Assembly: GCA_003558065.1 (NCBI GenBank)
Contig: PWMU01000018.1
Span: forward strand, 1-34,219
Direction of reading: 5' to 3'
Length of the DNA stretch: 34,219 nucleotides
DNA from: Opitutia bacterium
GTDB lineage: Bacteria; Verrucomicrobiota; Verrucomicrobiia; Opitutales; T3Sed10-336
Every line of letters starts with the position of its first letter. The stretch's first letter is position 1. Shown in pieces: positions 17,730 to 30,545 of this stretch. Made by a program: the position numbers and the translations under genes. The notes below the pieces were generated by a model, which worked only from the letters and a program-made list of their open reading frames with translations, was not told where the DNA came from and ran no database searches.

Positions 17730-19310
17730 CTACCGCCGGATCGGCAAAATCACCAGTGCGCCCAACAGGCAGGAAACCGCAAGGAGGGCGAAGACCGGGG
17801 TGGTGCCGTACAAGTCGATCACCCAGCCGATGAGCGGGTCGGTCGTGGCGGCAACAAAATACGCCCACATGTTCATGACCCCGATCGCGGTGGCGGCGCG
17901 GTAGCGCCCGAGCAGGTCCGGACAAAGCGCCCAGTAGCACGATTGGGGGCCGTACACCAGGAAACCGGCCAGGAAGAGCAGAACCACCCCGAGCACGATC
18001 TGCTCCGGTGGCAGAAGGTAAAAAAGCACCAGCACAACCGCGGCCAGTGTCATAAGCAAGGCGATCGGTTTGGAGCGATTTGAAGCGAAGAGTTTGTCCG
18101 AGATGTAGCCGGTGCTCAGCGCGCCCAGCGCCATGCCGATTGGCAGCGCCATGCCGATCCAGAAGCCGAAACGCTGCTCTTCGTAAGCGGGCCCCAGCAG
18201 ATGGGTCGGAAGCCAGACGATCAATCCGTACCGGGCGAGACTTTCGAAACCGATCGAAAGCGTGGCCAGCAGGAAGCGCCAGTTTCTGACCACCTGTCCG
18301 TAGCGTTGCAGCGAGGTCTCCTGGCCCCCGCCCAACGCACGCTTGTCCTCATCACGGTCCTCCGGAATGGGTGGATACCCTTTGTCTTCCGGCTTGTTGC
18401 GGGCGACAATGTAAAAGACGATCGCTCCGCCCGCCAGCAGTATGACCGGCAATTGGAAGAAGGCCCGCCACGAAAGCATCCCCGTCCGGACAACTTCGGT
18501 GAGCGCCGAAACGTCCGCCACCAGGCCTCTTATTTGGCCGGACGTCAATTCTTCCTGGTCCGGGAGGTCGGCGAGCGTTTCCCTGAACTCTTCAAGCCGC
18601 TCGGGTTCGATTACCGGATCGGTTTCGGATTTATCCGCGATTCTCTCCCCGTCGTTCTCGAAAATACGGAAATGCAACCTCCCCTCCGCATCTTCGGCCA
18701 CGTAAACGATGCCCGTTCCTTCTTCAGGGATTTCTTCGCGGCTTTCCACCGTGATCAACCTGAAGTCGATGGAAGGCGGCTGGACCAGCATGTTAATGCC
18801 GCCACAAATGGCGAAAACGAGAACACCGGAACATCCCGCGGCGAACACGTAGAAGCCGAACGCTTTCCCCCGCTCTGAATGATGCCACCAGTTTGAAAGC
18901 ATCCGGCTGCCCGGCGCCCACCCCATCGACTGGGCGTATCCATTGGCCGCCCATGGCACGAGCAGCGACACGAACGAGGTGGCGAAGCCGGTTATCCAAT
19001 TGAACAAAGCGGAAAACAGCCCGCCCATGGCCATCATCTTCCGGCCGCCGAACTTATCGCCAAGGTTGCCGTTGATGAACTGACCGATCCCGTAGCAAAG
19101 CAGCAACACCATGCTGAAGACCCCGAGCTGTCTGTACGTCAAGCCGAGATCGGCTTCGATGTACGGAAACGCCCACCCGTAGTTGTGGCGGCCGAGGTAA
19201 TAGAAGAGGTAACAGAACATCAACGCCAACAGCATGCCCCACTGGGCGCGGCGGAAGGATTTTGGCGCGGGACTCGGCGGGCGGCCGTCAGGGGAATCAG
19301 ATGGGTCCAT
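17730..19310 (-). CDS. OPA-family (GlpT/UhpT-like) organophosphate transporter with periplasmic insert
   Basis: This is a 526-residue inner-membrane protein of the major facilitator superfamily with about 12 hydrophobic segments. The first half carries OPA-family signatures: YLGRHNYGWAFPY near residue 38, whose Arg aligns with the phosphate-binding Arg45 of GlpT, and NGYAQSMGWAPGSRML near residue 123. OPA carriers exchange phosphate for glycerol-3-phosphate, hexose phosphates or similar anions. Unusually, about 100 polar, acidic residues (178-278) sit between membrane segments 5 and 6, which should face the periplasm. The gene lies 178 bases downstream of the PHP gene on the same strand, at the end of the phosphonate-like gene set. 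Import of an organophosphate or phosphonate is inferred from family and context. Confidence 0.82.
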   Translation of the reverse strand: MDPSDSPDGRPPSPAPKSFRRAQWGMLLALMFCYLFYYLGRHNYGWAFPYIEADLGLTYRQLGVFSMVLLLCYGIGQFINGNLGDKFGGRKMMAMGGLFSALFNWITGFATSFVSLLVPWAANGYAQSMGWAPGSRMLSNWWHHSERGKAFGFYVFAAGCSGVLVFAICGGINMLVQPPSIDFRLITVESREEIPEEGTGIVYVAEDAEGRLHFRIFENDGERIADKSETDPVIEPERLEEFRETLADLPDQEELTSGQIRGLVADVSALTEVVRTGMLSWRAFFQLPVILLAGGAIVFYIVARNKPEDKGYPPIPEDRDEDKRALGGGQETSLQRYGQVVRNWRFLLATLSIGFESLARYGLIVWLPTHLLGPAYEEQRFGFWIGMALPIGMALGALSTGYISDKLFASNRSKPIALLMTLAAVVLVLFYLLPPEQIVLGVVLLFLAGFLVYGPQSCYWALCPDLLGRYRAATAIGVMNMWAYFVAATTDPLIGWVIDLYGTTPVFALLAVSCLLGALVILPIRR

Positions 19311-19488: not shown

Positions 19489-20925
19489 CTATTCGGTGTC
19501 CGGGACTACAGGCTGTACCCAGGCCTTTTCTTTTTCGCCTTCGGAGTAGTAATTTTCTTTGTCTTTCGAGGAGATGACCCGTGCGCGGACGTAGAGCTCG
19601 TCGCCCTCGAAGGAGTAGGCGGCGGTGGTGCCCTCAACCGTATCAAGAACGACGCCGATGTCGTCGCTGTACTTGCGCGTGACCCCGAGTTCCCCGCCGT
19701 CCTCGTCCAGGATCGCTTCGCTGTCCGGATCGAAGCCGCGCCGGGTTCCGATGAATTCAGTGGTGTAGGTCACCCCGTCCTCGGCGTCGATCTCGATGGA
19801 AATGTTGTCGTCGTTTACGCGTATCCGCCGCAGGGTGACGCCGCTGCTGGAATAAAAATCACCCGACTCCAGCGCGTCGATCAAGTACTCAGGGGTCAAA
19901 AACTTGGACCGGACCTGGACCCAGCCCCGGCCGGGCCGCGAGACGTCCGAGGAACTGTCCTCGTAGTTGTGGGAGTCGTCGACCGCGAGACCGTAAATCA
20001 CATCGAGCCCCTTTTCGCCGAGACGCTGGGCGAGGATGATATCCCACATACGTTCGAGGCTTTTGTGGGTGTCGTCGCCGTAATTGCGCGAATTGCGGTG
20101 GCCGTTGTAGACCTCGAAGAAGCGCAGGTCTTCGACCGGCGCCATGTCTTCGGCGGTGACCCGCCAGCGCCAGTTGGGGTGGTTCAAGTGCGGCAGCATG
20201 GGCTGGCCGGTCTCGTCGCGTTGCTGCATCACCGCCTCGATGTTCTTTTCGATGGTTTCGCGTGCCCCGTCGCCTCCCTGCGGAGGAATGAAATCGACCA
20301 GGTTCGTGACGTTGACGTGAATATAGTCGGTGATCTCCTCCGCCTTGAGCATCAGGAAGCGATTCGGTTCCTCGAAAAAGGTCCGGAATTCGTTGAGCGG
20401 TTTGAGCCGGACGAGCTCTTCCCCGAGCTTCATGTGCTCCTCGGGAGGACGGCGCGCGCCCGAGCCCCCGCCTTCCGGGATGCGTTCGAGCTCGGCACGG
20501 AATTCCTCGTCGACCACGCGGGTTTCCACCCAGTCCTCGCCGAAACGCTCCCGGTAGAGCTCGAGGGCCTCTTCGCCTTTGCCGCGGGTAAAACGATGCT
20601 CAATCGGATGAATCCATTTTGTCCCCCGCGAAATCACATTGTGGTCGGAGAGAGCGAGGAAATGGTATCCATTCCGCTTATACCAATCCGCGATAACTTC
20701 CGGATAATGGTCGCCGTCGCTCCAGAGGGTGTGGGTGTGAAGGTTGCCCTTCCACCAGTAGTAGCCTTCTTCGTCCGCTTCGGGGGCTTCGTAGTTGCCG
20801 GTGTCGCCGTCATAGGCGCCGGCGGGCATCGCGGAAAGCAGGAAAATCATCCCGGCGGCGGCGGCTGTTATTGCGGCGGCATGGGGTGTCTGGAATGTCG
20901 GTAAGCGGGTGAGCGTGAAGTTCAT
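19489..20925 (-). CDS. secreted PHP-domain metal-dependent phosphoesterase
   Basis: PHP proteins hydrolyse phosphoester bonds with a metal cluster. The ATG at 20925 gives 478 residues with a signal peptide (hydrophobic stretch near residues 16-36, ending SAMPAGAYDG). The PHP motif NLHTHTLWSDG follows near residue 61, then LALSDHN, HLNHPNWRW and AVDDSHNYED, which supply the usual His and Asp metal ligands. The last 120 residues look like a beta-rich accessory domain. The gene starts 17 bases after the HAD gene, suggesting it is the last member of that operon. The substrate is unknown; export suggests extracellular or periplasmic release of phosphate from an ester. A second secreted PHP protein is encoded near 32 kb. 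Confidence 0.85.
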   Translation of the reverse strand: MNFTLTRLPTFQTPHAAAITAAAAGMIFLLSAMPAGAYDGDTGNYEAPEADEEGYYWWKGNLHTHTLWSDGDHYPEVIADWYKRNGYHFLALSDHNVISRGTKWIHPIEHRFTRGKGEEALELYRERFGEDWVETRVVDEEFRAELERIPEGGGSGARRPPEEHMKLGEELVRLKPLNEFRTFFEEPNRFLMLKAEEITDYIHVNVTNLVDFIPPQGGDGARETIEKNIEAVMQQRDETGQPMLPHLNHPNWRWRVTAEDMAPVEDLRFFEVYNGHRNSRNYGDDTHKSLERMWDIILAQRLGEKGLDVIYGLAVDDSHNYEDSSSDVSRPGRGWVQVRSKFLTPEYLIDALESGDFYSSSGVTLRRIRVNDDNISIEIDAEDGVTYTTEFIGTRRGFDPDSEAILDEDGGELGVTRKYSDDIGVVLDTVEGTTAAYSFEGDELYVRARVISSKDKENYYSEGEKEKAWVQPVVPDTE

Positions 20926-20942
20926 GATCAGTGTTTTTGAGG

Positions 20943-21722
20943 TTAGGTGAAGGCTCCTTTCGGAGTTGTGTCCTTGCCGGTCCGGAGTCGCCGGTTGAGC
21001 TTCCGTCGAATATCGTCGAGGGAATCGCCGGCACAAAGATTTCTCAGGGGATGCAACGAGTCGATTAATACGATGTCGGCGGGAACCTCCTTGATAGGCT
21101 GCCGCGGAATCGACGCGTGCCGTAGCCAGACAGGGAATATTCCGGCGTCCCGCGCCCCGCAAATGTCATCGGTCCAGTCATCGCCGACAAACACGGCTTC
21201 GCCGGGGGATACTCCCAATGCGGCGAGCAGCTTTCGAAAGCCGTCGGGATTCGGTTTCAGGAGGATATCGTTCGTGCCGCCAACGATGACGCTGTCGAAC
21301 ATGGCCATCAACGATCTGAACTGTTCGACGTGACGCCCGCGTTCGTGCACGGTGGAAGCGTTGGTCAGCAGGCCGACCTTGAAGTGCCTGCGGAGTTCGC
21401 CGAGTACCGGCATCGTGTCGGGAAGCAGGCGCGTCTCAGCGTCGACGCGGTCCCAGTATTCCGCTTCCCAGGTCGAGAGAAGGGTGTCCTGAAGCTCGAC
21501 ATTGAAATGGCGGCAAACCTTGTGCCATTGACGGACTTTATGGGCGGGTGAATTGCCGCCTTCCTCGGCGCGGATTCGCCGATAGGCGCCGATAAAGAGA
21601 TTCCAGTCGGGAAGATCCAGCCACTCGAACAGCCTTCGTTGAATCCAGCGTTCCGCCGTGCGAAACCCGTTTGCCGAGTTCACCAGCGTCTGATAAAAGT
21701 CAAAGAGGACCGCTTTAAGCAT
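20943..21722 (-). CDS. HAD-superfamily hydrolase (DxYxT type)
   Basis: This is a 259-residue cytoplasmic HAD hydrolase. Motif I is LFDFYQTLV near residue 6: the nucleophile Asp is present but the usual second Asp is Tyr, as in haloacid-dehalogenase-like members. Motif II is LLTNAS near residue 118, motif III is the Lys in LKPNPDGF, and motif IV is VFVGDDWTDDICGA near residue 193. An alpha-helical cap lies between motifs I and II, placing it in the HAD-IA group. Phosphonatase (PhnX) has a different motif I (DWAGT), so this is not a typical phosphonoacetaldehyde hydrolase. The gene follows the aldehyde dehydrogenase by 31 bases. Phosphatase or dehalogenase activity cannot be decided from sequence. 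Confidence 0.85.
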   Translation of the reverse strand: MLKAVLFDFYQTLVNSANGFRTAERWIQRRLFEWLDLPDWNLFIGAYRRIRAEEGGNSPAHKVRQWHKVCRHFNVELQDTLLSTWEAEYWDRVDAETRLLPDTMPVLGELRRHFKVGLLTNASTVHERGRHVEQFRSLMAMFDSVIVGGTNDILLKPNPDGFRKLLAALGVSPGEAVFVGDDWTDDICGARDAGIFPVWLRHASIPRQPIKEVPADIVLIDSLHPLRNLCAGDSLDDIRRKLNRRLRTGKDTTPKGAFT

Positions 21723-21753
21723 GGGATCTCAGCAAATGCCGCGCTCGACCGAT

Positions 21754-23205
21754 TCAATCGCGTCCCCACTTCTTGAGGTACGTGCCGAATATCTCTTCTT
21801 CGGAAGGAATGTGTTCCGGGATCGGATTTGTCATGATGGTGTAGTTGAGGAAGTGGCGCCAATCAATGTTTTCAGACGTCATATTGCCCGCCCAGGTTCC
21901 ACAGCCGAGGCTGTCGGTCGTGGGCATGCCGCTCCCCCAGCCGCCGCTGTTGGCGGCGGTGTGTCCCATATTGCAGACCACCCGCCCGACGTTGCTTTTC
22001 AACGCGAGTTCGGTCCGGCGCTCCTCGTTGAGGCTGTGGATCGACACCGAATGTCCCTCACCGGAGAATTTGAGCATCCTGCCGATGCGGTCGACCATCT
22101 CGCTGAAGTCGGACCACTTCCACACGGTCAGCACCGGGGAGATTTTTTCGCCGGAGAAGCGGTCGTCCGGACCGGGTTTGATACCCAGCACCATGATGAC
22201 GCGAGTTCCGTCGGGAACCTTGATGCCGGCTTGTTCTGCGATGAAGGACGCGGGTTTGGCCACGACCTCGCGGTTCAGCGTTTTGCCGTCCGGCCAGTAG
22301 TACTTCCGGAGGGCTTCGCGCTCCTTGTCGTTGCACAGGTGGCAGCCTTCCGCCTTCAGGGCCTCGAGCATCTCGTCGTAGATGCCCTCTTCGAGGGCTA
22401 CGGCGTTTTCCGAGGAGCAGGAGGCGGCGTTGTTGGCCGTTTTACTCTTCACGATTTTCGCCGCGGTCGCCTTGAGGTCGACGGTGGCGTCGACGATGGA
22501 AACGACGTTGCCGGCGCCGACGGTGTGGGCGGGCTTGCCGGCTTCGTAGACCACGCGCACCAGCGCCGCGCCCCCGGTAGCTATAGCAAAGTCGCACCGG
22601 CCCATCAGCTCACGTGTCTTGGCGTGGGAGGTTTCGCTGATGCACTGAAGCAGGTCTTCGGGCGCGCCGACTTTGCGCAGGCCTTTGCGGCCGAGCTCGA
22701 CGGTCTGCGCGGTGCTGCCCTGGGTGCGCGGGTGGGGCGAAACAATCATCGCGTTGCGGGTCTTGAGAGTGCTGAGGCCGAGGCAGCACACTGTGGATTC
22801 GGGATTGGTGCAGGGGACGACATTGGCGATGACTCCCATCGGTTTGGCGAAGATCTTCAGGCCTTTTTCCGGGTCCTCTTTCACCAGGCCACAGGTTTTG
22901 GCGCCAACCTGATCCCGCAGGGTACCGATGGTCTTGGTGAATATCTTGGCGACCTTGTGCTCGTACACACCGATGCCGGATTCGTCCACGGCCTGCCGGG
23001 CCAGCTTCTTTCGGTTCTCCTCCTTCTGCCACTCCCATCCGGCCGCCAGGACCATCTCGTCGACCTTCTCCTGCGGCCAGTCCTTGATGACCTCGAAGGC
23101 CTTGCGCGCCTTGACGTACATGGCCTCGAGTTCTTCGGCGGCTCCGTCGGATGCGGCCCGGGTCTCGGGCATCGCTTGTTTGCCGGTTTTGGTTGATTCA
23201 GCCAT
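21754..23205 (-). CDS. CoA-acylating aldehyde dehydrogenase (sulfoacetaldehyde dehydrogenase-like)
   Basis: This 483-residue enzyme should interconvert an aldehyde, CoA and NAD(P)+ with an acyl-CoA and NAD(P)H. It resembles the acylating subfamily (EutE, AdhE N-terminal half, SauS) rather than acid-forming dehydrogenases. It has PCTNPESTV near residue 131, LKTRNAMIVSPHPRTQ near residue 147, the nucleotide-binding VGAGNVVSIVD near residue 229 and the catalytic Cys263 in NNAASCSSENAV. There is no microcompartment targeting peptide and there are no shell genes nearby. It begins 3 bases after the second citrate-synthase-like gene, so it is part of the same operon. The aldehyde is unknown; phosphono- or sulfoacetaldehyde is suggested by the similarity and by the nearby phosphonoacetate hydrolase. 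Confidence 0.85.
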   Translation of the reverse strand: MAESTKTGKQAMPETRAASDGAAEELEAMYVKARKAFEVIKDWPQEKVDEMVLAAGWEWQKEENRKKLARQAVDESGIGVYEHKVAKIFTKTIGTLRDQVGAKTCGLVKEDPEKGLKIFAKPMGVIANVVPCTNPESTVCCLGLSTLKTRNAMIVSPHPRTQGSTAQTVELGRKGLRKVGAPEDLLQCISETSHAKTRELMGRCDFAIATGGAALVRVVYEAGKPAHTVGAGNVVSIVDATVDLKATAAKIVKSKTANNAASCSSENAVALEEGIYDEMLEALKAEGCHLCNDKEREALRKYYWPDGKTLNREVVAKPASFIAEQAGIKVPDGTRVIMVLGIKPGPDDRFSGEKISPVLTVWKWSDFSEMVDRIGRMLKFSGEGHSVSIHSLNEERRTELALKSNVGRVVCNMGHTAANSGGWGSGMPTTDSLGCGTWAGNMTSENIDWRHFLNYTIMTNPIPEHIPSEEEIFGTYLKKWGRD

Positions 23206-23208
23206 GGT

Positions 23209-24249
23209 TCAATGTCTCTTTCGGGGGTTCTTGGGATCCTCGATTTCCTCCACGATGGCAAACCCGCTGGCGGGGATCTTCTTGCGGCGTTCCAGCTCTT
23301 CCTTCCATTCCTCAAGCGAGTGGGTCTGGGCGGGTACGGCGTGTTTGTCGCGGTCGGCGAGAGGGGGGACGGGCCGGTCCGCCGGTCCGTCGTACAGGTC
23401 TTTCGGAGTCAGCACTTCGCCGAGGCGTGACGTGCCCTCGCGTTCGACTTCCTCCATGTAGTGCGCGCCCGCGCCAAACGAACGGGTGACTGCGATGATC
23501 GTCCAGGTTGCCTCGGGCGAGAAATCCATATCCGCCATGATCGCGCCTGTTGCGCCGAGCATGTCGATGTCTACCGGTGATGAGCCGGCTTGTTGGGCGG
23601 CTTTAACGACCTCCTTCATAAACGCGACGTGTTCGCCGGCCACGCCGAGTTTTTCGGCCCGGGCGATCATGCGCTTCGCGGCCGGATCCTTCAGCATCAG
23701 GTCCGAGACCCCCAGCGCCTCGTCATCGCCGTAATGCCTGACGAGTTCCGCCGCCATTTCCGGGAGAGGCTTGTCTTCTTTCCTGGCGCGTTCGAGATAG
23801 GACGTCAGGCGGTTGCCGAAGGCCGCGTACGCGCCGTAGGCATGGCCGAAGGCGAGAATGGAGGCGCCGCAGGCCTGCGTCAGGAATGTCTTGGACCGCG
23901 CCACGAGCCGGGACAGGGTCGCCGGCATCGACAGGCCGTCCTCCAGGGCAAGGATGAGGATGTAGTTGAGCATTTTCTCCTCTTCCTCGGTCGGGATGCG
24001 CGCCTGGAAATCCACGAAAAGCATGTCCACGACGCCGTAGCCCTCTTCAACCAACTCCGTGGTATCATACCCGCGCGCGACAATCCGGTGGATGTTCTTG
24101 TAGGCAACCTCGGAGACCCATTGGAACGGCGGGCGTTTTTCGTCGAGGGGCACCGTTCCGTGCTCACGGTTGATGTAGTCGTAGGGCAACCGGGGATCAT
24201 CCAGATTCCCGATCTTTTCCTTTGCCTCGTTGTCTTTCAGATTATCCAT
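23209..24249 (-). CDS. citrate-synthase-like protein, subunit B (degenerate active site)
   Basis: This 346-residue protein is homologous to the upstream gene product and to the citrate synthase/citryl-CoA lyase superfamily. Shared landmarks are VARGYDTTELVEEGY near residue 57, FQARIPTEEEEKML near residue 81, and MADMDFSPEATW and VTRSFGAGAHYMEE near residues 238-267, then YDGPADRPVP, like the YxGPxxR tail of citrate synthases. The first catalytic His is replaced by Tyr138 (GHAYGAY). The second His motif (GxGHxxYKxxDPR) is reduced to GVSDLMLKDPAAKR. Asp242 is kept. It overlaps the upstream gene by 13 bases, so the two are probably made together as one complex in which this subunit is structural, regulatory or contributes CoA-binding residues. 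The reaction is unknown. Confidence 0.75.
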   Translation of the reverse strand: MDNLKDNEAKEKIGNLDDPRLPYDYINREHGTVPLDEKRPPFQWVSEVAYKNIHRIVARGYDTTELVEEGYGVVDMLFVDFQARIPTEEEEKMLNYILILALEDGLSMPATLSRLVARSKTFLTQACGASILAFGHAYGAYAAFGNRLTSYLERARKEDKPLPEMAAELVRHYGDDEALGVSDLMLKDPAAKRMIARAEKLGVAGEHVAFMKEVVKAAQQAGSSPVDIDMLGATGAIMADMDFSPEATWTIIAVTRSFGAGAHYMEEVEREGTSRLGEVLTPKDLYDGPADRPVPPLADRDKHAVPAQTHSLEEWKEELERRKKIPASGFAIVEEIEDPKNPRKRH

Positions 24250-25166
24250 TTCTTATACTCTCCGGATTCCTTATGTTTCTTGGCGTAGGCCTGGCGTTCT
24301 TCCTGCTTGGGCACTTTGCGGTCTTCAGGGCCGACGTATTTGATCATGGAAAGATCCAGCATCTGCACCATGGGCTCGTTCCGCGAGGCGGCCCAGGCCC
24401 GGCCTTTCTTCACGGTAAACACCGCGTGAGCCGCGCAACTGTACCCGCGCACCACGCTGCCGATGCACCAGGCCGCGTTCGGCGCAAAGCCGATATCGCA
24501 CAGTGCCGTATTGCCTGCGCCGACGCAATTGACCGGAACGTACGCGCGCCCCTCCTTTTCACGGCGGGCATGGAAGTGTTTCTCAATCGCGCGCTGCAGC
24601 CGCAGGTAAACCCCGTCGAGTTTCAACTGTTCCTGCTTGAGGTGGGTGGGTTCGGCGCGCGGGTCGCCGTCGCGGTGCTGGGGCTGGCCCATTCCCATTA
24701 CCGGCTGTTTATTGTCGAGATAGGTGTCCACGAGGATCTTGGCGATCTCCTCGATGGTCTTGCCCTCGGCGAGGGCGCGTTCGAGGTACTCGTTCATCAT
24801 GTAGCCGTGGGCCGCTCCCGGGCCGTGGGCGCTGCCGAAGGTCATTACTGAGGAGGCCACGGCCGCCGGGAGGTTGGGCCGTCCGGCGGTCACGGCGATG
24901 GCGGATGCCGCCGAGGGCGACATCGAGTGCTCCATGAACTCGCCCATTTCATACTTGAGCATTTTCTCTTCCGCTTCGGTCGGAATACGGGCCTGGAAGA
25001 GCACGAACATGGCGTCGCAAAAGGAGTAGCCTTCCTCGGCCAGGTCGCTGAGATTATAGCCGCGAAGCACGGTTTTCTCTTCGGTCTTGTAGGCGATCGA
25101 CGTTTTTCTGGGGAGAAGCGGATCCCGCCCCCTTGATGTCTTCTGTTCTTTCTGATCCATCTCCAT
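24237..25166 (-). CDS. citrate-synthase-like protein, subunit A
   Basis: This 309-residue protein belongs to the citrate synthase/citryl-CoA lyase superfamily, whose members make or break a C-C bond next to an acyl-CoA. It is shorter than type II citrate synthase (about 430), like stand-alone citryl-CoA lyases. Landmarks: VLRGYNLSDLAEEGY, FQARIPTEAEEKML, His114 in FGSAHGPGAAHG (first catalytic His region), MGQPQHRDGDPRAEP at 159-173 where the usual catalytic His is Gln161 but His164 is near, Asp224 in ALCDIGFAPN, VVRGYSCAAHAV, and the tail YVGPEDRKVP. It is the first gene of the operon with its paralogue, the acylating aldehyde dehydrogenase, the HAD and the PHP genes. A leader hairpin lies just upstream. 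Substrates are unknown; true citrate synthase activity is unlikely. Confidence 0.78.
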   Translation of the reverse strand: MEMDQKEQKTSRGRDPLLPRKTSIAYKTEEKTVLRGYNLSDLAEEGYSFCDAMFVLFQARIPTEAEEKMLKYEMGEFMEHSMSPSAASAIAVTAGRPNLPAAVASSVMTFGSAHGPGAAHGYMMNEYLERALAEGKTIEEIAKILVDTYLDNKQPVMGMGQPQHRDGDPRAEPTHLKQEQLKLDGVYLRLQRAIEKHFHARREKEGRAYVPVNCVGAGNTALCDIGFAPNAAWCIGSVVRGYSCAAHAVFTVKKGRAWAASRNEPMVQMLDLSMIKYVGPEDRKVPKQEERQAYAKKHKESGEYKKWII

Positions 25167-25175
25167 TAATCCGGG

Positions 25176-25214
25176 TTAAAAACAAAATCCGAGCGCCGAC
25201 AGGATTCCGCTCGG
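25176..25214 (-). promoter_or_regulatory. leader hairpin with U-rich tract before subunit A (attenuator-like)
   Basis: On the - strand the perfect 7-base arms CCGAGCG and CGCTCGG (25208-25214 and 25189-25195) enclose a 12-base loop. They are followed at once by ATTTTGTTTTTAA, ending about 10 bases before the start codon at 25166. This has the form of an intrinsic terminator placed inside the 5' leader. A terminator for phnA already exists about 100 bases upstream, so attenuation or riboswitch control of the operon is a plausible reading. A backup terminator is the alternative. Confidence 0.6.
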
Positions 25215-25312
25215 GTCAGTTAAAGGTAAGGTAATACTGATTGCAGTGTAGGTGCTTGATTGATGACGATACTGGGGGGGATGGCGACCGAAATGAAAAT
25301 TTCCTCTTAGTC

Positions 25313-25355
25313 AAAAAAAATTCCTGGAACTCCCATTTCGCCGGAATAGTTCCAG
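25313..25355 (-). terminator. intrinsic terminator of phnA
   Basis: Immediately after the phnA stop, the - strand reads CTGGAACT, a 16-base loop, then AGTTCCAG (perfect 8-base arms at 25348-25355 and 25324-25331), then GAA and eight Ts (25313-25320). Position and form are those of a rho-independent terminator ending the regulator-phnA transcript. Confidence 0.85.
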
Positions 25356-25356
25356 T

Positions 25357-26607
25357 TCAGCCAACCGCCGCCGGGAGCGTGCCGTTACAGAGAAAGTCGA
25401 GGAGGGCGTAGTTGTTTGTGCTCCCGCCGCTCAGCCGATCGGCGTAGTCGGCGTTCAAGCGATGATTGACGATAAAGGGCACCTCCTGTTCGTGCAACCC
25501 CCCGTGGGAGCGGAGGCCGTTCCGGACCGCGGAAAGGTCGTGCCATTCGGCGGTTCGTCCCAGGACCGTGTTTCGATCGCCCAGGACCACCAGCTCCCCG
25601 ATGCGGTCACCGGGGAGGGAGAAACGGTTTTCGGCTTCCTCCCGGGAGAGCACCAGCTCGACGCCGGGAACTCCCTGAAGGATGCTCCGGGCGGCCGCGA
25701 TGTCTTCGGGCTTTACGTAAACGGTGGCAAAGGATCCGAGCGCACCGTGATGGACGACGTAGGGGTCGGTGATCGGCAGGATGACGCGGGGGGCGTCGAT
25801 ACCTTTTTCATTCAGCAGGGATTCGAGGTACCGGACGCGGGGGGAGCCGTCGGGATTCGTCTTGTCGTTCATGCCGTGATCCGCGGTGATCCCGAGCAGG
25901 ACGCCCTGGCTGTCGATTTCGCCGAGGAACCGGTCGAGCCGCGCGTAAAAGGCCCTCGCCTCCGGTGCTTCGGGCGGGTGCTTGTGCTGCACGTAATCGG
26001 TGGTGCTCAGGTAGAGAAGATCCGGCCGACTTTCCCGCAGGAGCCAATTTCCGGCTTCGATGCAGTAGACGCTGGATTCCGGATCGTAGATCCCCGGGCT
26101 CGGCCGCCCGATTTTTTCGACGACGCCGGTGATGCCGTTTTTCTCGTCGCTGGTTTCGGCGGCTTTTTCCACCGAGAAACAGATTCCGTTCCGGAGATCC
26201 TTGCCCAGCAGCTGGCACAGTTTGTCCTTGGTCGTGACGACGGCGACTGACTTTTCGACCCGGCTGAACGCGGACAGTACCGTCGGGCAGCGGAGGTGGG
26301 CGGGGTCGTTCATCATGATCTCCCGGTCCCGCCGGCGGTCGTAGTAAAAGTTGCCGCAGATTCCGTTTACGGAGGGAGGGGCGCCGGTGACCAGCGCCAG
26401 GTTGTTCGGGTTGGTGAAAGACGGGATCACCGACCGGGCGACCCCGCAAGCCCCCTTCGTCCGGATCCGTTCGAGATTCGGTGTGACGTCACGCGCGGCC
26501 TCCAGGTATTCGGGGGCGGTTCCGTCCAGACAGACGAGCACGATCGGCTTATCCCGAAGAGAAAAAGCGTTCCCGTTGACCGTTACATTCGGTTTGTTCG
26601 CGTTCAT
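25357..26607 (-). CDS. phnA: phosphonoacetate hydrolase
   Basis: PhnA, a zinc enzyme of the alkaline phosphatase superfamily, cleaves the C-P bond of phosphonoacetate to acetate and phosphate. The ATG at 26607 gives 416 residues, close to characterised PhnA (about 410). Strong family matches are VCLDGTAPEYLEAA near residue 25, the nucleophile Thr65 in SVIPSFTNPNNL, GICGNFYYDR, LYLSTTDYVQHKH, TADHGMN, LPITDPYVVHHGALGSFA and the final metal His in GLRSHGGLHEQEVPF. It has no signal peptide, so it acts in the cytoplasm. It starts 26 bases after the XRE-cupin regulator, probably its co-transcribed controller. Classic LysR control of phnA is replaced here. Function by family is strong; activity on a related substrate cannot be excluded. 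Confidence 0.9.
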   Translation of the reverse strand: MNANKPNVTVNGNAFSLRDKPIVLVCLDGTAPEYLEAARDVTPNLERIRTKGACGVARSVIPSFTNPNNLALVTGAPPSVNGICGNFYYDRRRDREIMMNDPAHLRCPTVLSAFSRVEKSVAVVTTKDKLCQLLGKDLRNGICFSVEKAAETSDEKNGITGVVEKIGRPSPGIYDPESSVYCIEAGNWLLRESRPDLLYLSTTDYVQHKHPPEAPEARAFYARLDRFLGEIDSQGVLLGITADHGMNDKTNPDGSPRVRYLESLLNEKGIDAPRVILPITDPYVVHHGALGSFATVYVKPEDIAAARSILQGVPGVELVLSREEAENRFSLPGDRIGELVVLGDRNTVLGRTAEWHDLSAVRNGLRSHGGLHEQEVPFIVNHRLNADYADRLSGGSTNNYALLDFLCNGTLPAAVG

Positions 26608-26633: not shown

Positions 26634-27194
26634 TCAAACATTGTCCCCCGAGAAAACACAAAGCACCTGGGCGGTCTTGTTTCCCGGATTCAGCAACCGG
26701 TGCTTCTCGGTCGCGTCGATGTACGCGCAGTCGCCTTTCTTGAGCCGGTAACGTTCGTCGCCGTACTCCAGTTCCACCGTGCCCTCGACGACCATGATAA
26801 ATTCTTCGCCTTCGTGCGGCAGCGCTTCCTTTCGAGGCTCTCCCTCCGGCAGCTCGAGAAGGAGGGGCTCCATCAGCTTGGCGTGCTTCGTCGCGGCGAG
26901 CGAACGGTAAACGATACTCGACTTCGGGCGGTCGCGGTCGACTACGGGACCCTCTTTCGCCGCCACGACCACGATCTTTCTTTTTTCGTCCACCCCCTCT
27001 ACCAGCTCGGAGAAAGTGACTCCGAGAGCTTCCGCGATCCGTCCCAGTGCGGCGAGAGACGGGGTGACCCGAAAATTCTCCACTTTGGAAAGGACGCTCT
27101 GGGTCAATTGGCTGCGCTCGGCCAGTTGACCCAGAGTCAATCCCCGCTTCTTGCGGATTTCTCGAATGCGTTGTGCCAGGAATACAAGGTTCAT
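26634..27194 (-). CDS. XRE-family regulator with C-terminal cupin domain
   Basis: This 186-residue transcription factor has an N-terminal helix-turn-helix of the XRE/Cro type (RIREIRKKRGLTLGQLAERS with QSVLSKVENFRVTPSLAALG, residues 9-56). Its C-terminal cupin has LPHEGEEFIMVVEGTVELEY near residue 125 and KKGDCAYIDATEKHRLLN. Such proteins (SutR/PuuR-like) usually repress neighbouring catabolic genes until a small molecule binds the cupin. It is the first gene of a two-gene unit with phnA, so it probably senses a phosphonate or a breakdown product. The start at 27194 has no clear ribosome site. Confidence 0.9.
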   Translation of the reverse strand: MNLVFLAQRIREIRKKRGLTLGQLAERSQLTQSVLSKVENFRVTPSLAALGRIAEALGVTFSELVEGVDEKRKIVVVAAKEGPVVDRDRPKSSIVYRSLAATKHAKLMEPLLLELPEGEPRKEALPHEGEEFIMVVEGTVELEYGDERYRLKKGDCAYIDATEKHRLLNPGNKTAQVLCVFSGDNV

Positions 27195-27473: not shown

Positions 27474-28640
27474 CTACGGCTTTACGGCCACGCGCAGCAC
27501 ATCCTTATTCGCGATAGCGTAGTCGAAGGCCTCGGCGATTCTCGCCAGTGGAAAGGATTTCCCCACGACTCGATTGAAGGAAAAACGGTCGTGATGGGCC
27601 TCCAGGAAGCGGAGCGCGGTCAACAGGTCCCCCGGCGCATAATTGTGCACGCCGCTGAGCCGCAGCAGGCGGGTTGTGACCAGCCGGAGGTCGATCTCGG
27701 CCAGAGCTCCGGGGAAGACGCAGCCGGCCAGCGCGTAAGCCGCGCCCTGTTTGAGCGCGGGCAGGGCTTCAGCTACCGCCGGGGGATGCCCGCACACTTC
27801 GATCGCCGCGTCGAAGCCGTAAGACCCCGCGACCTCGCGGGAAAACGCCTCGAGCCCGCCGGGACCGGCCTCGTCGACGCGCAAAATGTGGGTGGCTCCG
27901 AATTCCCTGGCGAGCTTGAGGCGCTCGGGAAAGGTGTCGGTAACCAGCACCGCGCGGCACCCGCTGGCGGACGCGAGGGCGGCTGCGCAGAGTCCCAGCA
28001 GCCCAGCCCCCTGGATGAGCACCGCCTGGCCGGGGCGGATGTTGGCGGTGCGGTGGGCGGCAGCGACGGTCGCCATGGCGCAATTGGCAAAGACCACTTG
28101 GTCGAATTCCAGTGAGTCGGGAATCTTGTAGATTGCCGACCCCGGGGCGAGGTAAATGAAATCGGCAAAGCCGCCGTTGAGCGGCGGAAGCGTATCCACC
28201 GATTCATGACCGTACTTGAAAAGCGTCGCGCATTTCTGTGGCAGGCCGTCTCCGCAGTAGAAACAGTGACCGCAACTTGCGGCGACGCTCCAGGTGACCC
28301 GGTCGCCCGGCGCGAGGGGCTCCCCGGCGGCGTCCCTGCTCAGGTTTTCGCCCAGCCGCGAAACCACGCCGCAGATTTCATGGCCCAGGATCAAAGGCCC
28401 TTCCGGGGTGCGGTGGCCGAGGAAGGTGTGGATATCCGAACCGCAAATCGCGCTCGAGGCAACCCGGACGATCGCCTCCTCCGGTTCGGGGGCGGCGAGG
28501 TCGAATTCCCGGATCTCCAGTTTGCGCGTTTTCGGATCAAAGACCGCCCCCCGGCAAGAGGGAGGGAGTTCCGCATCCGGATCACGAACCTTTTTCGAAT
28601 TCCCGGGGGAGTTGCTGCTTGGTTTGGGACTGCTTGTCAT
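27474..28640 (-). CDS. zinc-dependent alcohol dehydrogenase, phosphonate-associated type
   Basis: This 388-residue medium-chain dehydrogenase oxidises an alcohol or polyol with NAD(P)+. The catalytic zinc site shows as ICGSDIHTFLG and LGHEICGVV, the structural zinc cysteines as CGHCFYCGDGLPQKC, and the cofactor fold as IQGAGLLGLCAAA. The stretch VTWSVAASCG...GLPQKC..LFKYGHE with LNGGFADF strongly resembles the family annotated as phosphonate-catabolism-associated alcohol dehydrogenase (TIGR03366-type), judged from memory and not searched. About 30 polar Ser/Pro-rich residues precede the core. The start at 28640 fits a promoter just upstream; an ATG at 28667 would add 9 residues. It is divergent from a cupin gene. 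Inferred role: oxidation of a hydroxyalkyl phosphonate to the aldehyde. Confidence 0.85.
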   Translation of the reverse strand: MTSSPKPSSNSPGNSKKVRDPDAELPPSCRGAVFDPKTRKLEIREFDLAAPEPEEAIVRVASSAICGSDIHTFLGHRTPEGPLILGHEICGVVSRLGENLSRDAAGEPLAPGDRVTWSVAASCGHCFYCGDGLPQKCATLFKYGHESVDTLPPLNGGFADFIYLAPGSAIYKIPDSLEFDQVVFANCAMATVAAAHRTANIRPGQAVLIQGAGLLGLCAAALASASGCRAVLVTDTFPERLKLAREFGATHILRVDEAGPGGLEAFSREVAGSYGFDAAIEVCGHPPAVAEALPALKQGAAYALAGCVFPGALAEIDLRLVTTRLLRLSGVHNYAPGDLLTALRFLEAHHDRFSFNRVVGKSFPLARIAEAFDYAIANKDVLRVAVKP

Positions 28641-28646
28641 TATGCT

Positions 28647-28676
28647 TGATAAGAAAACATTAGTCATCTATGTCAA
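28647..28676 (-). promoter_or_regulatory. possible promoter of the alcohol dehydrogenase
   Basis: A perfect TTGACA lies on the - strand at 28676-28671. An AT-rich TTATCA-like -10 lies 17-18 bases on, at about 28653-28647, just before the ATG at 28640. If used, the message would be nearly leaderless from 28640, and the ATG at 28667 would lie within the promoter. The same 50 AT-rich bases must also hold the promoter of the divergent cupin gene. Confidence 0.4.
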
Positions 28677-28689
28677 TTATTAGTTTTTA

Positions 28690-29043
28690 ATGAAGAAGCC
28701 GGCCAACCTCCTGAAAAATCTCCCTCCCCCCGATGCCGAGGAATTTTTCGAAACGCTGCTCGATCAGCCCGACTTTCGTCTCGAACGGATCGTTTCGCAG
28801 GGCCATGTCACGCCCCCGGGTGAATGGTACGACCAGGACCGGGACGAATGGATCCTGCTCCTGAGCGGCGGTGCCACGCTTCTGTTCGAACACGAGGAAC
28901 AGCCGGTCCGTCTGGAGGCCGGCGATCATCTCCACCTGCCGGCCCATGTCCGCCATCGGGTGGAGTGGACCGATCCCGCGCAATCCACCATCTGGCTCGC
29001 CCTTCATTTTCGCGGCAAAGTCGGCGCAGCAGCGCCCGGCTGA
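28690..29043 (+). CDS. small cupin-domain protein
   Basis: This is a 117-residue single-domain cupin. The fold is indicated by the acidic GEWYDQDRDEWILLLSG segment near residue 43 (in place of the HxH of typical motif 1) and by LEAGDHLHLPAHVRHRVEW near residue 75, which supplies three or four candidate metal-binding His. Such small cupins are common beside catabolic genes and may act as isomerases, sensors or metal-dependent lyases; the exact role is unknown. It is divergent from the alcohol dehydrogenase and 20 bases before the sulfatase, so it may be co-transcribed with the latter. Confidence 0.8.
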   Translation: MKKPANLLKNLPPPDAEEFFETLLDQPDFRLERIVSQGHVTPPGEWYDQDRDEWILLLSGGATLLFEHEEQPVRLEAGDHLHLPAHVRHRVEWTDPAQSTIWLALHFRGKVGAAAPG

Positions 29044-29063
29044 GAACAATCTCCCCCCGGGTC

Positions 29064-30545
29064 ATGTCAGGTTTGCAACAAGACCGCCGGAACGTGCTCT
29101 TCATCCTTTCCGATGACCAGGGCCCGTGGGCGATGGGATGCGCCGGCAATTCCGAAATAGAGACACCCAATATGGACCGACTCGCGGTCACCGGAATGAG
29201 GTTCGATAACTTCTTCTGCGCCAGTCCTGTCTGTTCTCCAGCACGAGCGACGCTCCTGACGGGGCGCCTGCCTTCGCAGCATGGGGTACATGACTGGATC
29301 AACGCCGGAAACACGATCGCGAAATACGAACCGGCGCGAAACGGTGAACTGATCGAGTATCTCAAGGATCAAGTTGGCTACACGGATCTTCTGTCGGCGG
29401 CCGGATATTGTTGCGGAATAAGCGGCAAGTGGCACCTGGGGGATTCTCACCACCCGCAAAAGAGCTTCGACTACTGGGGTGTTCATGCCAAAGGCGGCGG
29501 CCCCTACTTTAATGCACCGATGATAAGAGGCGGCGGAATCCATGAAGAACCGGGTTACGTCACCGATGCCATCACAGCCAATGCTCTCCGCTGGCTTGAA
29601 GGGCAAAAAGCCGGCAAACATCCCTTCTACCTGAGCGTTCATTATACCGCGCCGCATTCGCCCTGGTCACGCAATAACCACCCCACCGAGGTGTATGACC
29701 GTTACTACAATGATTGCCCCTTCAAATCCGTTCCCGAGCATCTCACGCCCCCTGACTGGGTTCAGAACGTTTCCATCCCGGTGAAAACGGCTGAGCAGCG
29801 TCGTGAGCATCTCAGTGGTTACTATGCTGCTGTAACGAGCATGGACAGAAGTATCGGGAGATTGATCGATTGGCTGGAAGCCAATGGCCTTCGAGAAGAG
29901 ACGCTGATCGTCTTTACGAGTGATAACGGGATGAACATGGGACACCATGGCGTGTATGGCAAAGGAAATGCCACATTCCCACTGAACATGTTCGAGGAGT
30001 CGGTAAAAGTCCCTTTTATTGTATCCAACCCCGGCCGCGTCGCACAGGGAACCGTAAACAGCGATCTGGTCAGCCAGTACGATTTTATGCCAACATTGCT
30101 TGACTACGTCGGGATTGAGAATCCGCAGCGCGAACAGCTGCCGGGAAGGAGTTTTGCCGGCGTATTTCGCGGGGCAGAAACGAAAAGTGATTCACACATC
30201 GTGGTATTTGATGAGTACGGGCCGGTTCGTATGATCAGAAATCGGAAATGGAAGTACGTCCACCGCTTCAACCATGCACCCAACGAGTTGTATGACCTCG
30301 TAAGTGATCCTTACGAGCAGCGCAATATGGCGGGAGACGTGAATTGCCATACTGTTGAAAATAGATTGCGGACCTGTCTGACAGAATGGTTTTCTCGATA
30401 CGTTATTCCGGAACGTGACGGCTCAATGAAACCTGTTACCGGGAACGGGCAGCTTGGATTGTGTTGGGAGAAGGAAGAGGGGAGGCTCCCCTTTAATCCG
30501 GGCTGTACGCGCCGGGCTGGAGTAAAAAATGAAAGAGAGTGTTAG
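29064..30545 (+). CDS. type I sulfatase (formylglycine-dependent), cytoplasmic form
   Basis: This 493-residue member of the alkaline phosphatase superfamily should hydrolyse a sulfate ester (or, less often, a phosphonate monoester). The ATG at 29064 is chosen because the family core starts 9 residues later (RRNVLFILSDDQGPW). Cys57 in PVCSPARATLLTG is the C-x-P-x-R site to be converted to formylglycine. Metal and substrate residues follow in GKWHLGD, YTAPHSPW and FTSDNGMNMGHHG. There is no signal peptide, unlike most polysaccharide sulfatases of this kind, so the substrate is probably a small imported molecule. No formylglycine-generating enzyme is in the window. The second half of the gene looks less GC-rich than its neighbours. 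Confidence 0.9.
   Translation: MSGLQQDRRNVLFILSDDQGPWAMGCAGNSEIETPNMDRLAVTGMRFDNFFCASPVCSPARATLLTGRLPSQHGVHDWINAGNTIAKYEPARNGELIEYLKDQVGYTDLLSAAGYCCGISGKWHLGDSHHPQKSFDYWGVHAKGGGPYFNAPMIRGGGIHEEPGYVTDAITANALRWLEGQKAGKHPFYLSVHYTAPHSPWSRNNHPTEVYDRYYNDCPFKSVPEHLTPPDWVQNVSIPVKTAEQRREHLSGYYAAVTSMDRSIGRLIDWLEANGLREETLIVFTSDNGMNMGHHGVYGKGNATFPLNMFEESVKVPFIVSNPGRVAQGTVNSDLVSQYDFMPTLLDYVGIENPQREQLPGRSFAGVFRGAETKSDSHIVVFDEYGPVRMIRNRKWKYVHRFNHAPNELYDLVSDPYEQRNMAGDVNCHTVENRLRTCLTEWFSRYVIPERDGSMKPVTGNGQLGLCWEKEEGRLPFNPGCTRRAGVKNEREC

Follow-up and report, generated by a model that had tools for sequence, protein, structure and literature searches.

What do two citrate-synthase-like proteins and an acylating aldehyde dehydrogenase do together beside a gene for phosphonoacetate hydrolase? 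The question is raised by a locus of an Opitutia bacterium (assembly GCA_003558065.1), for which we analyzed a stretch of 34,219 nucleotides (the window), contig PWMU01000018.1 of a 4.13 Mb draft genome. The present analysis suggests that these genes belong to a cassette for the coenzyme A (CoA)-dependent breakdown of 2-aminoethylphosphonate-type phosphonates in bacteria that are probably mostly anaerobic. For the full proposed route, including cleavage of the carbon-phosphorus (C-P) bond by a heteromer of the two citrate-synthase-like proteins, CSa and CSb, we estimate a probability of about 0.42. The cassette itself is real, widespread, and apparently undescribed: a prediction made earlier from the window's letters (the original prediction) had called the gene set undescribed, and we found no matching paper in the open-access literature, to which this statement applies; an earlier description is possible. 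The closest cassette-bearing relatives of the window genome are Verrucomicrobia/Opitutales metagenome-assembled genomes (MAGs). The genes of the run are the following.

24237..25166, minus strand: CSa, citrate-synthase/citryl-CoA-lyase-like subunit (309 amino acids; PF00285, 60.5 bits)
23209..24249, minus strand: CSb, degenerate citrate-synthase-like paralogue (346 amino acids; PF00285, 32.4 bits)
24237..24249, minus strand: overlap of the CSa stop and the CSb start, 13 bases (translational coupling), kept in 33/33 related loci
21754..23205, minus strand: acylating aldehyde dehydrogenase (ALDH), candidate CoA-acylating phosphonoacetaldehyde dehydrogenase (483 amino acids; NF047625, 483.6 bits)
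20943..21722, minus strand: HAD-family hydrolase (259 amino acids; PF00702)
19489..20925, minus strand: secreted PHP/CehA-McbA-like metallohydrolase with an ATG start (NF038032, 64 bits; cut-off 80)

The five same-strand genes of the original prediction are all present as described, with intergenic gaps of -13, +3, +31, and +17 bases from CSa through CSb, ALDH, and HAD to PHP. Their status as one unit held in part: the set recurs across phyla, but its recurrent core is CSa-CSb-(PhnW)-ALDH-(HAD), where PhnW is a 2-aminoethylphosphonate transaminase, with the PHP gene and phnA added only locally. When one genome per species was scanned, 44 cassette loci turned up, 62-93% identical to CSa, from Verrucomicrobiota, Planctomycetota, Chloroflexota, Desulfobacterota, SAR324, and candidate Muproteobacterium, among others. 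Each of these records is a MAG or a symbiont assembly, and the bacteria are uncultured and largely sediment-derived. Such identity across phyla suggests that the cassette may have spread by horizontal transfer. CSa was found in 5/88 genomes around the window genome, spanning three genera, and in 15/291 genomes of one class; the plasmids and phages searched held merely distant citryl-CoA-lyase-like relatives (<60% identity).

In the recurring arrangement, CSa, CSb, and ALDH follow one another; PhnW is placed either ahead of them or between the last two, and HAD frequently comes behind ALDH. Two Chloroflexota neighborhoods, L021 and L022 (L labels denote cassette neighborhoods and G labels genomes), read PhnW-CSa-CSb-ALDH. 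Of the 22 loci with room for it, 20 have ALDH no more than 2.5 kb downstream of CSb, and 42/48 cassette genomes have an ALDH ortholog. Because this gene order recurs in several phyla, the arrangement is not due to chance. The overlap of CSa and CSb is exactly 13 bases in every one of the 33 loci (ATG is the start codon in 32), and pairwise distances within the two families correlate (Spearman 0.77). The invariant overlap and the correlated distances point to a stoichiometric CSa/CSb complex. Two deviating loci were also seen. A Sedimentisphaerales genome carries a second CSa-CSb pair without nearby ALDH or PhnW (L050 9998-11970), and in a single-chromosome MAG the cassette ALDH is disrupted, just 207 amino acids aligning (L044 11917-12885, CP070785.1), which reflects a pseudogene or an assembly error.

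Which metabolism does the cassette serve? The assignable genes around it are mostly phosphonate genes. A PhnW-type transaminase cluster is present in 29/44 loci, in 23 of them within 400 bases of the pair, and 28 of its 29 members matched TIGR03301 at E < 1e-60; the Planctomycetota and Chloroflexota transaminases that were checked are PhnW proper. PhnW exceeds its cut-off in 31/43 cassette genomes. Across the 291 related genomes of one class, which are not independent of one another, it does so in 14/15 CSa-positive vs 27/276 CSa-negative genomes (odds ratio 129, Fisher p 2e-12). Furthermore, PbfA is over its cut-off at the cassette (10/15 class III members match the model), as are PhnC and PhnE at L032, and TIGR03366, TIGR03340, and TIGR03351 proteins recur nearby with scores below their cut-offs, the TIGR03366-type alcohol dehydrogenase group at 10 loci, one of them that of the window. 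A linked phosphonoacetaldehyde-producing enzyme, the broad mark of 2-aminoethylphosphonate catabolism, accompanies the cassette in those 29 loci and 31 genomes, the window genome not being one of them. The original prediction had named wide recurrence without phosphonate genes as evidence against itself; the opposite was found, with PhnW in 29/44 loci and PbfA, TIGR03366, TIGR03340, PhnX-like, or PhnC/E proteins in others. Its CoA-dependent pathway for phosphonates, which phosphonoacetaldehyde probably enters, was thus borne out by the neighbors, and a role of the cassette in phosphonate catabolism is very likely.

ALDH finds its best NCBIfam match in SauS (NF047625), whose cut-off of 600 it does not reach, and scores 20 bits against the PhnY-type model TIGR03250 (cut-off 635.65). 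The nearest solved structure is the acylating succinate-semialdehyde dehydrogenase 8cei, the catalytic Cys263 is kept in 25/25 members, and the nearest relatives, SauS, AdhE, and SucD, are CoA-acylating. ALDH is therefore a candidate CoA-acylating phosphonoacetaldehyde dehydrogenase, and phosphonoacetyl-CoA is a probable intermediate. Another CoA-acylating dehydrogenase, of the methylmalonate-semialdehyde-dehydrogenase type, adjoins the cassette on the opposite strand in L023 (13687-15189; TIGR01722 over cut-off), and a protein clustering with it lies by the cassette, also on the opposite strand, in L026 (15388-16842).

CSa and CSb both belong to PF00285 (gathering threshold 27), are 35% identical to each other, and have citryl-CoA lyase as their best models, with scores below cut-off; 6hxp is the closest solved sequence. 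In citrate synthase, D375 deprotonates acetyl-CoA, H274 stabilizes the enolate, and H320 activates oxaloacetate. We mapped these residues by profile alignment to 6hxp/2c6x, using 40 CSa and 36 CSb members. In CSa, H114 aligns to H274 and R170 to R329 (both 40/40), whereas the H320 position holds Q161 (40/40) and the D375 position (V215) Val or Ile (40/40). CSb is without all four catalytic equivalents (Y138, V181, A190, L231): its columns hold Tyr/Phe at H274, Ala (one Ser) at R329, V, I, Y, or A at H320 (Val in 32/36), and Leu at D375 (36/36). The equivalents of His320 and Asp375 are hence gone from every member of both families. Retention of H274 with loss of D375 and H320 fits an enolate that would arise when the C-P bond of phosphonoacetyl-CoA is broken and would be protonated afterwards; as an argument from residues, the CSa pattern fits a C-P-cleaving role. 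CSa also has invariant histidines at H120, H164, H175, and H247, which make a metal site possible.

We therefore propose a route of three steps. First, PhnW, PbfA, and perhaps the window's zinc alcohol dehydrogenase would supply phosphonoacetaldehyde; the reactions of PhnW and PbfA are known, and their families are identified here. Second, ALDH would, as its family suggests, use NAD(P)+ and CoA to convert phosphonoacetaldehyde to phosphonoacetyl-CoA. Third, a CSa/CSb heteromer would cleave the C-P bond to give acetyl-CoA and phosphate, the citrate-synthase fold stabilizing the acetyl-CoA enolate as leaving group. D375 and H320 may have been dropped because the enolate would arise from C-P cleavage, with no call for deprotonation or oxaloacetate activation. 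HAD would be an accessory hydrolase, and acetyl-CoA would be obtained without ATP cost. Assigning C-P cleavage to CSa/CSb is tentative, its odds being somewhat below even. With the same reserve, the pair may represent a new C-P-cleaving class, a heteromeric phosphonoacetyl-CoA hydrolase of citrate-synthase fold that would set phosphate free by expelling an acetyl-CoA enolate, with no relation to PhnX, PhnA, PalA, PhnZ, or C-P lyase.

Could known C-P-cleaving enzymes do this work instead? True PhnX over the family cut-off was found in 0/43 cassette genomes, in a search that had no positive control genome. PhnA is over its cut-off in 3/43, a fourth genome (G112) scoring 402 bits vs a cut-off of 407.6, the C-P lyase protein PhnJ occurs in 2/43, the window genome being without it, and PhnX-like proteins occur in about 7/43. 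None of PhnX, PhnX-like proteins, PhnA (G112 counted), and PhnJ was found in 31/43 cassette genomes, 24 of which have PhnW over cut-off. G124 and G115 are single chromosomes without any tallied C-P enzyme; G115 has PhnW, PbfA, CSa, and CSb, and its ALDH is disrupted. The genomes of L021 and L022 likewise yielded no HAD, PhnX-like protein, PhnA, or PhnJ. The PhnX-like proteins are conserved across phyla near the cassette and carry an MG..K stretch, which we take to resemble the Schiff-base lysine region of PhnX. They match TIGR03351 below its cut-off at these positions.

L018 19364-20233: PhnX-like protein
L023 4838-5587: PhnX-like protein
L032 5793-6722: PhnX-like protein
L049 2-625: PhnX-like protein
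L074 6106-6831: PhnX-like protein

Besides, a PhnA-like gene of the alkaline-phosphatase superfamily (210 bits vs 407.6) directly follows ALDH and HAD at L078 3208-4317 (G102, contig C177). We did not count the HD-domain genes close to L046 and L055 as PhnZ, the L046 member matching only the generic PF01966.

Among the alternatives, the one that survives best, although unlikely, has HAD, replaced in some genomes by the PhnX-like protein, act as the C-P-cleaving enzyme on phosphonoacetyl-CoA or phosphonoacetaldehyde and leaves CSa/CSb another step, such as acyl-CoA handling or product condensation. PhnX is itself a HAD protein, PhnX-like proteins occur in the seven or so genomes mentioned, and the HAD ortholog is single-copy in 27/43 cassette genomes and 6/6 further ones (33/49 in total); it adjoins PhnW and ALDH in G347 and ALDH and the PhnA-like gene in G102, and the second Asp that phosphatases have in motif I is missing from 13/16 HADs. 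However, that Asp is kept in 3/16, the closest models are CTE7/YjjG with no PhnX family match, and HAD was not found in 16/43 cassette genomes (counting a 28th genome, G088, whose copy is cut by a contig end), being absent also from the fully visible neighborhoods L018, L020, and L021. CSa/CSb are much better conserved and occur more constantly. Being frequent, yet missing from some loci, HAD is either the strongest competitor of CSa/CSb for C-P cleavage or plays an accessory part.

Less probable still is that CSa/CSb act as a synthase, joining phosphonoacetyl-CoA to a 2-oxoacid to form a phosphono-citrate analogue that loses phosphate later. The fold family and the H274-like and R329-like residues of CSa would suit this, but the residues for enolization and oxaloacetate activation are lost in all members, and no recurrent neighbor cluster points to a subsequent lyase or dehydratase. 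We consider it slightly less plausible again that the pair unloads CoA, as a thioesterase or transferase, to leave phosphonoacetate for PhnA. This would agree with phnA lying immediately ahead of the pair in the window and its congener, and with the PhnA-like gene that adjoins ALDH and HAD in G102; a thioester made and then hydrolyzed would nevertheless waste energy, and PhnA, which the original prediction had finishing the pathway, is too rare among cassette genomes (3/43 over cut-off) to bear that part out. A sulfonate or other aldehyde as the true substrate, with ALDH as a SauS-type sulfoacetaldehyde dehydrogenase, is improbable: SauS is indeed the best match, but the score of 484 is well under 600, pathway-assignable neighbors are mostly phosphonate genes, and no sulfonate gene occurs among the scanned neighbors, so that the sulfo analogue loses the equal standing first given to it. 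Phosphonate biosynthesis is the least probable, since phosphoenolpyruvate (PEP) mutase, a marker of phosphonate synthesis, does not reach its cut-off in 40/43 cassette genomes, which argues for catabolism, and PbfA and PhnC/E serve catabolism or uptake; in its favor are the three genomes with PEP mutase over cut-off and the AepZ-like nature of the checked Desulfobacterota transaminases.

Several points weigh against C-P cleavage by CSa/CSb and the route built around it. The single-copy presence of HAD in 33/49 genomes and its placement in G347, with PhnW and ALDH and apart from CSa-CSb, mean that HAD could be the C-P enzyme. Among plasmid citryl-CoA lyase controls, Thr stands in the place of D375 in 3/4 and H320 is kept in 4/4; loss of D375 is thus not unique to CSa/CSb. 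CSa is a distant relative of the solved enzymes, its residues being mapped by profile alignment only, and the structures predicted for CSa and CSb from the alignment of each family are of low confidence (mean pLDDT, the predicted local distance difference test, 46 and 58). The AepZ-like Desulfobacterota transaminases exceed the TIGR03301 cut-off and fall below that of TIGR02326, and PhnW was found neither in the window genome nor in its congener. Absences are weak evidence where MAGs are incomplete, and the O2-dependent enzyme PhnZ and PalA lie outside the tally of C-P enzymes. Finally, the proposed route is a prediction from genes.

The surroundings of the run in the window bear on local variants of the cassette.

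25357..26607, minus strand: PhnA phosphonoacetate hydrolase, accessory, of the window genus (TIGR02335, 479 bits; cut-off 407.55)
about 25355-25318, minus strand: intrinsic terminator after phnA, stem CTGGAACT/AGTTCCAG then T8
26634..27194, minus strand: XRE-cupin transcriptional regulator (HTH_3 and Cupin_2)
27474..28667, minus strand: zinc alcohol dehydrogenase of the phosphonate-associated TIGR03366 type (309.7 bits, just under the cut-off of 328.1)
17730..19310, minus strand: MFS transporter of the GlpT/PgtP type, candidate phosphonate importer (TIGR00881 the best match)

Regulator, phnA, a stem-loop with T8, and the five-gene run follow one another on the minus strand. The terminated regulator-phnA unit that had been predicted ahead of the five genes is there, PhnA being over the TIGR02335 cut-off; the terminator was recognized by reading and folding, a simple terminator scan being negative. 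The PhnA of the window may handle phosphonoacetate separately, and one may speculate that the zinc alcohol dehydrogenase is a source of phosphonoacetaldehyde, e.g., from 2-hydroxyethylphosphonate. RpiR-type regulators and GlpT/PgtP-type MFS transporters are found at Verrucomicrobiota loci, relatives of the window transporter adjoining the cassette in L017 and L019. The PHP gene or phnA accompanies the cassette in some Verrucomicrobiota only; PHP relatives lie by it just in L016 and L014/L020, which does not support the PHP protein as a pathway member. A sulfatase-family gene (28824-30545), divergent from the alcohol dehydrogenase, matched arylsulfatase/PehA (phosphoric/sulfuric ester hydrolase) models below cut-off, and a relative adjoins the cassette in L060. 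In or near other cassette operons lie genes for MtmB-family (PF05369, monomethylamine methyltransferase) proteins with no in-frame stop.

L023 7148-8521 and 8588-9952: MtmB-family genes, PF05369 matched directly for this pair
L026 7671-9191: MtmB-family, clustered with the L023 pair
L044 516-3363: MtmB-family, clustered with the L023 pair
L059 16566-17939: MtmB-family, clustered with the L023 pair

These proteins are candidate anaerobic N-methyl-2-aminoethylphosphonate demethylases, a counterpart of the FAD enzymes PbfB/C/D.

How does the cassette compare with known systems? Like the PhnW-PhnY-PhnA route, it has PhnW followed by an aldehyde dehydrogenase for phosphonoacetaldehyde, and the window has PhnA; in contrast, its ALDH is of the CoA-acylating type and not PhnY, PhnA is absent from almost every cassette genome, and the citrate-synthase-like pair stands in PhnA's place. 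It shares PhnW entry and a HAD protein, often in the operon, with the PhnW-PhnX (phosphonatase) route, but lacks true PhnX, its HAD being nearest CTE7/YjjG. From citryl-CoA lyase and citrate synthase, to which fold family and closest structure (6hxp) link it, the pair differs in having two distinct, translationally coupled subunits and in lacking the H320 and D375 equivalents. SauS is the nearest named ALDH family and acts on a substrate of analogous shape, whereas the cassette ALDH falls under its cut-off and has phosphonate, not sulfonate, gene context.

2-Aminoethylphosphonate has been described as the commonest biogenic phosphonate (PMC8154272), and hydrolytic and radical C-P cleavage routes for it have been mapped chiefly in Pseudomonadota (PMC10574752). 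Citrate-synthase-like or acylating enzymes are unmentioned in a review of phosphonate degradation and in papers on recurrent phosphonate genes (PMC10574752, PMC8154272, PMC10590968, PMC12366243). The sole open-access match to 'phosphonoacetyl-CoA' was a biosynthesis paper that predicted the compound without observing the expected by-product (PMC12871164). Sulfate reducers were reported to lack PhnX and to have PhnA in 18/95 strains (PMC4046663). For such bacteria without PhnX, the cassette would offer a concrete answer. It predicts a new catabolic phosphonate metabolite, phosphonoacetyl-CoA, and two or three purified proteins would suffice for a direct test of the putative new C-P-cleaving enzyme. 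If the route is true, anaerobes would gain acetyl-CoA directly from 2-aminoethylphosphonate.

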